Positions 1,497 to 5,850 of a stretch of DNA of 48,500 nt are shown here, one piece after another. The stretch's first letter is position 1. Every line of letters starts with the position of its first letter. The DNA lies in the IMG/VR virus record IMGVR_UViG_3300042485_000830, positions 1 to 48,500 of that record; one strand, given 5' to 3'. The position numbers and the translations under genes are program-made. This stretch comes from a virus. The notes below the pieces were generated by a model that saw nothing but the letters and a program-made list of their open reading frames with translations, had not been told where the DNA came from and did no database searches.

Positions 1497-1819
1497 GGTA
1501 TGGCATGCCAAGACAAGGTATGGTCAGGCGAGGCGGGGTTCGGTAAGGCGCGGTTCGGCGTGGTTAGGTGCGGTTAGGCTAGGCGCGATACGGTTCGGCA
1601 AGGTTGGGTTCGGTAGGTGCTAGGCTGGGTATGGTGAGACGTGGTTTGGTATGGTGAGGGTTTTTTAATGGGGCTTGGCCGCGTTTGGCATGGCGTGGCG
1701 AGGTTAGGTTCGGTTAGGCTTCATTAAGAAACCCTTATGGGTTTTATGCGGTAAGGCACGGCGCGGTCCGGACTGGTGGGGCAGGGTTAGGTCCGGTCGG
1801 GTCGGGTGTGGTACGGTTC
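1497..1819 (+). repeat. degenerate pentanucleotide (GGYNN)n array in three blocks
   Basis: The 362 bp between 1491 and 1854 carry no plausible gene but a striking 5-bp periodicity. Reading in register gives 24 units at 1497-1616, 7 at 1623-1657, 10 at 1672-1721 and 14 at 1750-1819. Of these 55 units about 49 fit GGYNN (for example GGTAT, GGCGA, GGTTC, GGTTA). Positions 1-2 are nearly fixed, position 3 is T or C, and 4-5 vary. Each block ends in an oligo-T run (1661-1666; after the hairpin at 1729-1744; 1831-1835), so the + strand may be transcribed into several short G-rich RNAs. It is not a CRISPR (no spacers) and not coding (a 5-bp period brings stops into all frames). It sits 34 bp upstream of the RAMP-like gene. 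Confidence 0.9.
1729..1748 (+). terminator. hairpin with T-run closing pentamer block 2
   Basis: AAACCC (1729-1734), loop TTAT, GGGTTT (1739-1744), then TATG. The stem is a perfect 6 bp and the run of T is short, so this is a modest intrinsic terminator for + strand transcription. It separates the second and third GGYNN blocks. Confidence 0.5.
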
Positions 1820-1835
1820 CCCGTAAGGGGTTTTT
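1819..1835 (+). terminator. hairpin with T-run closing pentamer block 3
   Basis: CCCC (1819-1822), loop GTAA, GGGG (1827-1830), then TTTTT. It immediately follows the last GGYNN unit and lies 19 bp before the ATG of the RAMP-like gene, so it could end an array transcript or act as an attenuator for the gene. Confidence 0.55.
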
Positions 1836-1853
1836 AATATAGGAGAAAGTAGA

Positions 1854-2471
1854 ATGGCTAAGTCCAATTTGAAAGTCGTTAGTGATGTAACCAATGGTGG
1901 TAAGAGCGCCATTGAACAGGGTTTCCCTTATGCTGTAGCAGTGCGGGCTCAAGGCGCGGCGGATCTGTTGTTCCACCGCTGGAACTGCGAGTCAGTCGAT
2001 GCGAAGTCCAAGGCCGCCAAGAACTCGGCTGCCAAGAAGACCGATGACATCGAGTCCTATGTGTGGAGGAATGAGAAAAATGAGCTCTGTATCCCGGGAG
2101 AGTATTTTAGGCAATCCATTATCCATGCTGCGAAGTTTAAACAAGACCCCCGCTCCCCTCGTAAATCCGCGATGGATCTGTTCAAAGCCGGGGTCGTATC
2201 GCTTACTCAGTTGGCGTCACTTGGTAGCGATGAGTGGGACTACCTTGACACTCGTCGGGTCACAGTACAGCGAGCCGGAGTCAATAGAACCCGACCTGCC
2301 ATGCGCATCGGATGGGAAGTGGATCTACAGTTTCAAATACTCACCCCTGAGTATATCGACCCCCACCTTTTTCAAGACGTACTGAATACGGCAGGCCGCC
2401 TCGTGGGCGTTGGAGACTTCCGCCCAACGTACGGACGTTTTAACGTTACGAACTTTGAGGTGCTGTCATGA
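1854..2471 (+). CDS. putative Cas7/RAMP-fold RNA-binding protein
   Basis: 205 residues with no name I can give with certainty, but the sequence pattern is that of a RAMP (RRM-derived Cas7-like) protein. It has an N-terminal β-strand PYAVAVRAQG (25-34), an IPG turn leading into a helix with basic residues (IPGEYFRQSIIHAAKFKQ, 80-97), long strands around 135-163, and a C-terminal glycine-rich loop GRLVGVGDFRPTYGRFNV (181-198) like the G-rich loop that contacts RNA in Cas7, Csm3 and Cmr4. Family knowledge: such proteins form filaments on guide RNA. No Cas1, Cas2, Cas10 or Cas6 is nearby. The start has AGGAG upstream and follows the pentamer array. It overlaps the next gene by ATGA. Alternative: a conserved phage single-strand-binding or structural protein with a similar fold. 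Confidence 0.55.
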   Translation: MAKSNLKVVSDVTNGGKSAIEQGFPYAVAVRAQGAADLLFHRWNCESVDAKSKAAKNSAAKKTDDIESYVWRNEKNELCIPGEYFRQSIIHAAKFKQDPRSPRKSAMDLFKAGVVSLTQLASLGSDEWDYLDTRRVTVQRAGVNRTRPAMRIGWEVDLQFQILTPEYIDPHLFQDVLNTAGRLVGVGDFRPTYGRFNVTNFEVLS

Positions 2472-2908
2472 TTAAAAAGCCTGCAAAGAAGACGATCAAG
2501 AAGGCGAAAGGTAAGCCCCTTTCCCGTACGGTAAAGAGTACTCAAAAGAGTGCGGTTAAGAAGGCGAAAGGTAAGCCCCTATCCCGTACGGTAAAGAGTA
2601 CGCAAAAAAGTGCGGTCAAGAAGGAGAAACTTACGCAGCTGGCCCAGCTCGTCGCAAAGTGGGACAAGGACCAAGGACCACTGCCCAGCCTTTTCGAAAC
2701 GGCCACCGAGCTTGATGAAGTGGTCAACACTCTCACCAATATCCAGCACCTGATGGATTGTGCTTTGGATGACTGCGTAGACCTTACCGATAACGCCCGC
2801 GCCATTTCCTTACTGTACCTTGCCCATGGGATGGTCAAAGGAGTGATCGATAAGACCGATGCAGTGACCTCGGACCTTTACCGCATCAACCGGAAAAATT
2901 TAGGCTAG
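2468..2908 (+). CDS. lysine-rich protein with internal tandem repeat
   Basis: 146 residues. The first 55 are extremely basic (Lys/Arg-rich, proline and serine present, like an H1-type tail) and contain two copies of a 20-residue unit that begins KAKGKPLSRTVK, from a 60-bp tandem duplication. Residues 56-146 are an ordinary helical domain (LTQLAQLVAKWDK; TELDEVVNTLTNIQHLMD). The tail should bind nucleic acid non-specifically. Coupled by ATGA to the RAMP-like gene, so it probably works with it or with the array. The end overlaps tail-to-tail with the Ntn-hydrolase gene by 9 bp. Confidence 0.7.
   Translation: MIKKPAKKTIKKAKGKPLSRTVKSTQKSAVKKAKGKPLSRTVKSTQKSAVKKEKLTQLAQLVAKWDKDQGPLPSLFETATELDEVVNTLTNIQHLMDCALDDCVDLTDNARAISLLYLAHGMVKGVIDKTDAVTSDLYRINRKNLG
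2498..2617 (+). repeat. 60-bp tandem duplication
   Basis: Two adjacent 60-bp copies (2498-2557 and 2558-2617), in frame inside the lysine-rich gene, differing at a few positions that are mostly silent; a third degenerate start (AAGAAGGAGAAA) follows at about 2618. The bias toward silent differences suggests the peptide repeat is kept by selection. Confidence 0.85.
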
Positions 2909-3361
2909 CTTTTTCTTGCGCCTTGGGGCCGGGTGTAAAGGCTCCAAGGACATACAGTCGATAGGACCGCCCGTAAGGGGGTCGTAGAGGGACGCAATCT
3001 CTATGGCCTCCTTGGGGCTCTTGCCCAAGTGTAAGGCCGCTATGGCGTACCCTGACCCCGTCCCGATCGCATAAAAGTCGTTTTTGATCCTCGCAGGGAT
3101 CAAAGTGTTCTCGTAGACCCAAATCCCGTCCCGCCGAAGCTCCAACATCTCGATGTCGCAGTCGTCATCCAACTCGTCGCCGTCTTTGGGGTTCTCCAGC
3201 ATGCTAAACGCCCCCAAGATATCTTTCCAATCGCCAGCCGCCCCGTAGATCGATTCCCGGCCCCTACGGAGCTTCTCCACAAAGTACTTGATGTCATCCC
3301 CACTGACTTGGGAGTCGGCGGCAATCTCGAGCGTTGAGAACCTGGCGGCGATCGTTGTCAT
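2900..3361 (-). CDS. HslV/proteasome-like Ntn hydrolase
   Basis: 153 residues that match the proteasome β/HslV fold from the first residue. Removing Met leaves TTIAARF with the nucleophile Thr at residue 2; AADS supplies the Asp (residue 16); and EKLRR supplies the Lys (residue 30) in the place of HslV Lys33. GTGSGYAIAAL (101-111) corresponds to the conserved glycine-rich strand and helix, and residues 113-130 (LGKSPKEAIEIASLYDP) to the following helix. The core is slightly short for HslV and the basic tail (RRKKK) is extra. The expected role is threonine-protease activity, perhaps in capsid or host protein turnover; no unfoldase partner (HslU) is in the window. Transcribed leftward, overlapping the HNH gene upstream by 4 bp. 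Confidence 0.75.
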   Translation of the reverse strand: MTTIAARFSTLEIAADSQVSGDDIKYFVEKLRRGRESIYGAAGDWKDILGAFSMLENPKDGDELDDDCDIEMLELRRDGIWVYENTLIPARIKNDFYAIGTGSGYAIAALHLGKSPKEAIEIASLYDPLTGGPIDCMSLEPLHPAPRRKKKLA

Positions 3362-3780
3362 GGCTTTAGGTATTCCTGGCGTTGCTCCAGGTCGTCCTCG
3401 GGGTCTTCTTTGCGCATGCTACGGTTGTACGCCCGGATGGCCTGATGCTCGTTAAAATGCTCTATCCGGTGACAGTTGGCACACAAGACCTCACAACGCT
3501 TTACCTCCTCGTACGCCTGCGCAAAACAATTGTCCATCACCAGCCGATTGACATCTTTCTTGCTCCCATCCCGCGTGGGGTGGTGAAAGTCAATGATCGC
3601 CGGGTGCGATGCACCACACCGGGAGCAAACAAGCGTGCTCTTGTACTCTAACCACTTGGCGCGGTTCTTTCTGCGCAAGGCATTGACCGCGTCCTGAATC
3701 ACACGCTTATTGTTCTCATAGTACTTCTTACCGTACTCGCGGTTCTTGATCTTTCGGGTCTCAGGATCCTTGTACGGCAT
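3358..3780 (-). CDS. HNH endonuclease
   Basis: 140 residues starting at MPYKDPETRK. The frame continues upstream to 3894, but this Met has GAGG six bases before it and begins the conserved part. The N-terminal third is a basic helix (KKYYENNKR), then CSRC (Cys52/55), DFHH (64-67) and CANCHRIEH (Cys100/103, His104, His108). That is the zinc-bound ββα-metal HNH layout seen in phage and homing nucleases. It may act in packaging, in DNA turnover or as a selfish endonuclease. Its stop overlaps the start of the Ntn-hydrolase gene, and both are expressed from the divergent region at 3781-4395. Confidence 0.8.
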   Translation of the reverse strand: MPYKDPETRKIKNREYGKKYYENNKRVIQDAVNALRRKNRAKWLEYKSTLVCSRCGASHPAIIDFHHPTRDGSKKDVNRLVMDNCFAQAYEEVKRCEVLCANCHRIEHFNEHQAIRAYNRSMRKEDPEDDLEQRQEYLKP

Positions 3781-3863
3781 GGCATTCCTCGTTAGATGGG
3801 TGTGGGGGACTTGGATAACCCCAATCGTCGAAAAAGGGCGCCCCCACAAGGCAATCGTACCTC

Positions 3864-4039
3864 GGACCATGGACCAAGGAAAGTTAATCATCATGCGTAT
3901 GACGGTTAAGTTGGACCAAAAGGTACCAAAAAGGTCCGAAAGGGACCGTGGACCACGGAAAGTTACTCATCATCGGTATGACAAGTAACTCGGTGGGGGA
4001 TCAAGTGTCGCGGACCACGGACCACGAAAGCTACTATAG
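3864..4039. repeat. imperfect 40-bp direct repeats plus partial third copy
   Basis: Copies at 3864-3903 and 3943-3982 agree at about 35 of 40 positions (GGACCRTGGACCAMGGAAAG then a TCATCAT...TATGAC tail). A truncated third copy (GGACCACGGACCACGAAAG) begins at 4012. They lie just upstream of the leftward HNH gene. Candidate binding sites for a regulator of the divergent promoter or for the replication initiator. Confidence 0.7.
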
Positions 4040-5522: not shown

Positions 5523-5850
5523 ATCTTGGGTGAATCTTGGCATCCCGGATTGTATTATCGCTTTAAATGATGCGTTTCATTTGGTCGAGCTGAAGGTCGC
5601 CGATGCGAAGGGGAAAGTGAAGGTCAGCCCTCATCAGGTGGCTTTTCACTCCCGGCATAAAGGCTGTCCTGTTTGGCTGTTTGTGCAGTACGACAAGGGG
5701 CGTAAGGCTAAGCTATTAATTTATCCGGCGTGGCAATCTTACGAGGTGGCGAAGATGGGCATCTTTGTCCCGCCAGTCTTAGAACAATCTTATCCATGGG
5801 ATTGGGAAGGGGTCGAAACTTTCTTGAAGAAAGCACTTGACAAGGTGTAG
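5446..5850 (+). CDS. PD-(D/E)XK (VRR-NUC-like) nuclease
   Basis: 134 residues with the core of a PD-(D/E)XK nuclease: GIPD with Asp35, a strand to VELK (Glu48, Lys50) and SPHQ with Gln64, as in VRR-NUC and small Holliday-junction-resolvase-like phage proteins. GAGGAG precedes the start inside the terminase gene. Likely acts on branched or free DNA ends during recombination or packaging. The stop is followed by a promoter at 5837-5865. Confidence 0.75.
   Translation: MTKKPEASFYQKMKKGMTGSKITRVESWVNLGIPDCIIALNDAFHLVELKVADAKGKVKVSPHQVAFHSRHKGCPVWLFVQYDKGRKAKLLIYPAWQSYEVAKMGIFVPPVLEQSYPWDWEGVETFLKKALDKV

Follow-up and report, generated by a model that had tools for sequence, protein, structure and literature searches.

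The virus-derived stretch of DNA analysed here (IMG/VR record IMGVR_UViG_3300042485_000830, 48,500 nucleotides, hereafter the window) carries a VIPR system, a new member of a kind that is already known. VIPR (Viral Interference Programmable Repeat) was described in a 2026 preprint from the Doudna laboratory as an ancestor-like relative of CRISPR (PMC13142463; doi 10.64898/2026.04.26.720920), and our literature search found no further papers on it. The published system, of which seven types are distinguished, combines an ancestral RAMP protein encoded by the phage (Vipr) with vrRNAs of 9–16 YNNGG repeats that carry a structured tail; as a rule there is also one accessory gene (vap). The NN dinucleotides base-pair with DNA, leaving out one target base in every unit. 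Transcription is repressed by the complex, whose natural targets are satellites and prophages. In SUSP1, altering NN while GGY stays unchanged redirects the system to a new reporter target (PMC13142463). The original prediction had proposed an RNA-guided system, outside the known CRISPR types, in which a GGYNN RNA works together with a Cas7/RAMP-like protein. A Cas7-like fold, sense-strand arrays accompanying homologous genes and the match to the published VIPR bear this out and, as VIPR has already been described, the window locus is an added member of a known system.

A pattern search of the region located runs of GG[CT]NN at 1497–1819, on the + strand only, with a longest run of 14 units and a total of 35 units in runs that are five or more units long. 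Shuffling the array region 2000 times with dinucleotides preserved never produced a GGYNN run of more than five units, which establishes the array as real, and in the rest of the window the longest run on either strand was three units. The last repeat unit is separated by 34 bp from the start of the 205-aa open reading frame, and the window thereby shows the published arrangement of a tandem GGY/NN array that is intergenic, beside vipr and on the sense strand. No tRNA, tmRNA or Rfam family was matched, and the tandem-repeat output for the window contained no CRISPR-like array.

The array is divided into tracts and hairpins, all on the + strand. Tract A (1497–1657), recognised by direct reading, the shuffle test and comparison with sister phages, comprises about 32 units of five bases, most of them GGYNN; the register breaks once, near 1616–1622, and several units have a mutated GG. 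The NN pairs of its first 24 units read, 5' to 3', AT AT AA AA AT CA GA GG TC AA GC TC GT TA GC TA TA GC AC TC AA TG TC AG, and homologous tracts were found in the sister phages L001, L003, L011 and L081 (L numbers denote loci of other phages and genomes). A possible 5' leader hairpin, CATGCC-AAGACAA-GGTATG (1504–1522), was noticed by eye within the first units and is conserved in sister phages. Tract A is followed by an 18-bp hairpin at 1658–1734 (arms 1658–1675 and 1717–1734), the probable 3' tail of vrRNA A. Across five phages 100% of the cells in this stem are paired and three pairs have changes on both sides; in a control, support for pairing dropped once the arms were slid, and the RNA fold of 1640–1850 gave z = -4.6 relative to shuffles. 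Inside the hairpin lie the GGYNN-like units of tract B (1672–1721; NN: TT CG TT AT GT GA TA TC TA TT), which, being enclosed in this way, may belong to the tail instead of serving as guide.

Tract C (1750–1819) has 14 units, with NN pairs AA AC GC CC CT GG AG TA CC CG CG GT AC TC, and direct reading places at its end a terminator-like hairpin, CCCC-GTAA-GGGG followed by TTTTT (1819–1835), which stands just ahead of the vipr ribosome-binding site. A hairpin scan reported an overlapping five-pair stem at 1812–1825, and a similar hairpin occurs in sister phages. Of the terminators that had been attributed to the array, this one stands, whereas the seeming second one is the right arm of the covarying 18-bp hairpin enclosing tract B. 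The covarying hairpin after tract A and the terminator-like hairpin after tract C together supply the conserved structured 3' tail that is a hallmark of VIPR.

The vipr gene itself (1854–2471, + strand) encodes the 205-aa RAMP with a Cas7-like fold and a C-terminal glycine-rich loop, GRLVGVGDFRPTYGRF. No model in Pfam, NCBIfam or PADLOC matched the protein, and PHROGs places it in phrog_4652, a family listed as function unknown. In an alignment of 39 representative relatives (A1), FHRWNCE is invariant and the glycine-rich loop takes the form G-x-GDFRPTYGRF. AlphaFold2 run on this alignment returned a model with a mean pLDDT of 86.5. Its comparison with Cas7 and Csm3 types, a check put forward with the original prediction, came out in favour of the proposed fold: the best 50 Foldseek matches in the PDB were all Cas7/Csm3-type subunits of CRISPR RAMP complexes (type VII Cas7, Csm3, Cmr, Cas7-11; best E 5e-7), at sequence identities of 9–16% to Cas7-family chains. 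Three viral structure matches were significant, one of them named "Cas system-associated RAMP superfamily protein". Searched against the PDB, the A1 profile hit exactly one chain, 36pp_D, "SUSP1 Vipr protein" (E 3.3e-10), and hhalign to SUSP1 Vipr, read from KT454805, gave E 1.5e-11 with the G-loop aligned. The predicted fold and these profile matches confirm the protein as RAMP-like and reveal the RAMP homolog with RRM core and G-loop that characterises VIPR. The vipr gene of the isolated phage DSL-LC04 (L081, OR003939.1:22429-23046) is 98% identical to that of the window and has arrays as well, which makes the system testable in the laboratory; its annotation as a "helix-turn-helix transcriptional regulator" is not supported by the fold.

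The vipr stop is overlapped by four bases by a second + strand open reading frame (2468–2908), which is translationally coupled and encodes a lysine-rich protein of 146 aa. The coupling that had been predicted for this partner holds, and the partnership itself stays a candidate: homologs occupy the same position only in the eight closest phages, other relatives carrying unrelated genes or arrays there. The protein matched no family in the protein family databases and showed no convincing similarity to SUSP1 Vap1. It is at best a candidate vipr-accessory protein (vap), and as such could bind DNA through its basic N-terminus. Its gene contains a 60-bp tandem duplication at 2496–2629 (about 2.2 copies, 91% matches) that repeats KKAKGKPLSRTVKSTQKSAV. 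Upstream of the array, 289–615 encodes a Rap1a/Tai4-type immunity protein (Pfam PF18602, E 1e-17), and an open reading frame similar to this gene lies by vipr in L008 (5854–6168). Behind the VIPR locus, the - strand carries genes for an HslV-like peptidase (phrog_1040; 2900–3361) and an HNH endonuclease (3358–3894). No cas family was matched among the neighbouring proteins scanned, which represent part of the window's genes.

Relatives of the 205-aa protein comprised 80 from IMG/VR and one from the isolated phage DSL-LC04; bacterial genomes yielded 33 further loci, including Thermomonas flagellata, Stenomitos rutilans and many Phycisphaerales MAGs. GGNNN runs of at least seven units were present in 60 of the 81 loci fetched by protein, upstream or downstream of the gene and on its strand for all but two runs. 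When a nine-unit GGYNN pattern alone was used for retrieval, 91 of the 120 contigs among the matches listed encoded a Vipr-profile protein; in the pattern-fetched contigs, again among the matches listed, 214 runs lay on the vipr strand versus 2 on the opposite strand, with a median gap of 182 bp. The array and the gene, whose co-occurrence in related phages had been proposed as a check, are therefore linked in both directions.

The other 29 of these 120 listed contigs (L158, L166, L171, L175 and others) had at least nine GGYNN units and no Vipr-profile protein; they may be truncated loci, may encode more distant Vipr types, or may hold arrays that work without a Vipr of their own. The sole case of GGNNN runs opposite the vipr strand among the 81 loci was L074 (2972–3031 and 4581–4625). 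Some GGYNN arrays were very long, reaching about 1.5 kb (L066:5681-7229, L063:2189-2979, L075:5602-6307 and L032:2995-4909). In L063 a repeated element of ~85–90 nt splits the tracts, and in L032 arrays flank both sides of a gene that by eye resembles a RecT-type annealing protein. Stenomitos rutilans carries two vipr copies ~100 kb apart on one 344-kb contig (L105 and L107).

Comparison of the repeat units corrects one element of the original prediction, in which the array had been taken as a uniform periodic ligand: the NN positions carry information and GGY is the scaffold. Across 2047 units of relatives, taken from loci fetched by protein, position 3 was C or T in 94%, and positions 4 and 5 were nearly even. 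When tract C of the window was compared with those of L001, L011 and L081, identity was 80% at GG and 81% for the Y class, versus 29% at NN, which is near chance; the Vipr proteins of the same four phages are about 98–99% identical. Near-random NN on a retained GG, next to nearly identical proteins, is the mark of guides that are exchanged while the scaffold stays constant, and it reproduces in the tract C of four sister phages the VIPR hallmark of conserved GGY and hypervariable NN.

To examine the published code, every tract with nine or more units in the loci retrieved was decoded, and 2.4 Mb were searched for best matches on both strands, with arrays masked, at skips of 0–3 bases. With a skip of 1 and 11-unit windows, three guides reached 22/22, 21/22 and 21/22; with skips of 0, 2 or 3, or with shuffled guides, none rose above 20/22, a value attained in one skip-3 case. 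The guide of L078 (4235–4304) matched L036:4318 at 26 of 28 positions over its full length and in wobble phase (AGKYLAVIVDSKTK), and that of L055 (7136–7210) matched a small protein gene at L108:6936 at 26 of 30. A guide of L065 (951–1035) matched the 3' end of the L036 vipr gene (5553–5588) at 22 of the first 24 positions and then diverged (25/34 overall); it sits just behind its own vipr, yet matches this less well than the vipr of L036. On this alignment, the L065 guide is a case of VIPR aimed at VIPR. The skipped base was the codon third position in all three of the L078, L055 and L065 matches. For the guides L040:3447 and L098:6103 the matches were less complete and fell on the bottom strand of a helicase-like gene next to VIPR loci L037 and L094.

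Judged by these matches, the published 1-nt-skip rule holds in the Vipr clade of the window for guides of relatives, and, as decoded, the genes that these guides address belong to other phages and genomes with VIPR. Because the matches are few and the loci partly related, they support the rule and do not measure its rate. The decoded natural targets cluster in genes adjoining other VIPR loci, namely a small AGKYLA-type protein, which may be DUF669-like, and the helicase-like open reading frame. Two further lines were set aside. A match of L081 to L090 (20/22, skip 1) was discarded as selection-biased, L090 having been fetched with a pattern shared by the L081 guide, and reading decoded guides by eye as peptides was dropped as evidence, since codons of the form NNx almost never dictate a stop and a protein-like reading therefore proves nothing.

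The hallmark of NN specifying DNA targets with a 1-nt skip was thus found in guides of relatives and not in the window's own. Exact skip-1 patterns of 8–10 units from the window's guides matched IMG/VR sequences only over the pattern itself, with no extension beyond it, and GTDB genomes gave no match. In IMG/VR, tract C gave 0 matches for units 4–12, 7 for units 7–14 and 3 for units 1–8; tract A gave 2 for units 12–19 and 20 for units 5–12; and tract B gave 5 for units 1–8. Outside the searched units, agreement fell to about chance. Allowing up to three mismatches revealed no target in either 34 clade records or 399 genomes belonging to one order, and the window matched its own guides no better than at other skip lengths, which gives no sign of self-targeting. 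The best of these matches, L273, agreed with tract C at 23 of 28 positions and is not claimed as a target: 16 positions were preselected by the search, the overlap with the open reading frame is out of wobble phase, and its product resembles a phage structural protein. The guides of the window are probably aimed at rival viruses, and their targets likely reside in unsampled freshwater phages or satellites.

The locus is almost certainly best explained as a phage-borne VIPR system in which guides and Vipr repress target genes. Following the published system (PMC13142463), the array would be transcribed into vrRNAs, tract A with its hairpin tail and tract C with its terminator-hairpin tail, and Vipr monomers would coat each vrRNA with one GGY/NN unit per subunit, as Cas7 does on crRNA. 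The GGY triplets would be held by the protein and the NN pairs displayed. The resulting RNP would pair with DNA non-contiguously, each NN being followed by one skipped base, usually at the codon wobble position, and the bound RNP would repress the target gene (PMC13142463). The most likely targets would be genes for replication or regulation, or vipr itself, in rival phages or prophages. This explanation is backed by the array, the Cas7-like RAMP fold, the relationship to the solved Vipr, co-occurrence, NN hypervariability, the tail hairpin and the relatives' skip-1 matches, all seen in this analysis; against it count the failure of the searches to reveal a target for the window's own guides, a tract A longer than the published 9–16 units, and a partner unlike Vap1.

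A rival reading is a degenerate or decaying VIPR, homologous to the active systems and now inactive, with guides that no longer have targets. Tracts A–C have no target found, and tract A shows the register break at 1616–1622 and several GG-mutated units. Vipr, however, has remained intact and differs very little between sister phages, the NN of tract C has turned over while GGY was kept, and the targets may sit in unsampled freshwater phages; we consider decay improbable. Far less probable still is autoregulation in the manner of TRAP (trp RNA-binding attenuation protein), which binds a conserved triplet (GAG/UAG) with a 2-nt spacer every 5 nt. Here the protein would read triplets in its own leader and control the terminator before its gene, the NN being mere spacers. 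The 5-nt period, the conserved triplet with a free dinucleotide, and the position of tract C and its terminator directly upstream of vipr all fit such a scheme. The arrays of relatives, however, lie downstream as often as upstream and extend up to 1.5 kb, and their NN match real genes at a 1-nt skip far beyond shuffles, which is unexpected for spacers. The fold is moreover that of a RAMP, unrelated to TRAP, whose spacers carry no information. Autoregulation might possibly be added on top of a VIPR guide function.

We attach next to no probability to the array being a DNA or RNA G-quadruplex or another structural element, such as an origin, packaging or partition site, with the RAMP gene as a mere neighbour. 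GGN3 repeats would fit a two-tetrad G4 pattern, but the strict 5-nt register, the Y at position 3 in 94% of units, the fixation on the sense strand, the tight co-occurrence with Vipr and the relatives' target matches all argue against it.

With the VIPR reading preferred, the window locus and its relatives provide an independent, database-only confirmation of a recently reported, CRISPR-related gapped RNA code for reading DNA, in a Vipr clade distant from the experimentally tested SUSP1. The concrete natural targets, namely a rival vipr, a helicase-like gene and a small protein, found in other phages that carry VIPR, lend support to the idea of RNA-guided warfare between phages. That the window's clade represents a VIPR variant beyond the published description, defined by a guide tract of ~32 units, a large hairpin tail within which GGYNN-like units lie, and a lysine-rich protein as a new accessory, seems to us rather unlikely. 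If it did, a single vrRNA could read a target of close to 90 bp, or several targets that overlap.

Among known systems, the Cas7-family subunits (Csm3, Cmr4, type VII Cas7, Cas7-11) share with Vipr the RRM-based fold and the glycine-rich loop (Foldseek E down to 5e-7), and the stepwise coating of RNA proposed for Vipr would be a further parallel. Unlike Cas7 CRISPR systems, the window locus has a 5-nt rather than a 6-nt unit and a non-contiguous guide, and no repeat–spacer array was seen and no cas gene noticed. The closest likeness is to the type II VIPR of SUSP1 and P. fulva (PMC13142463, PDB 36pp). Its differences from these are the only distant relationship of its Vipr to that of SUSP1, the ~32 units of tract A as against 9–16, the large hairpin tail enclosing a GGYNN-like tract, and the lysine-rich partner in place of a Vap1-like protein. 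In SUSP1 (KT454805), GGYNN tracts flank vipr and vap1 on both sides, and the window shares with this type the Vipr RAMP, gene-flanking GGY/NN arrays, a 3' tail hairpin, the location in a phage, a minimal two-gene locus and, here in its relatives, the 1-nt-skip code.
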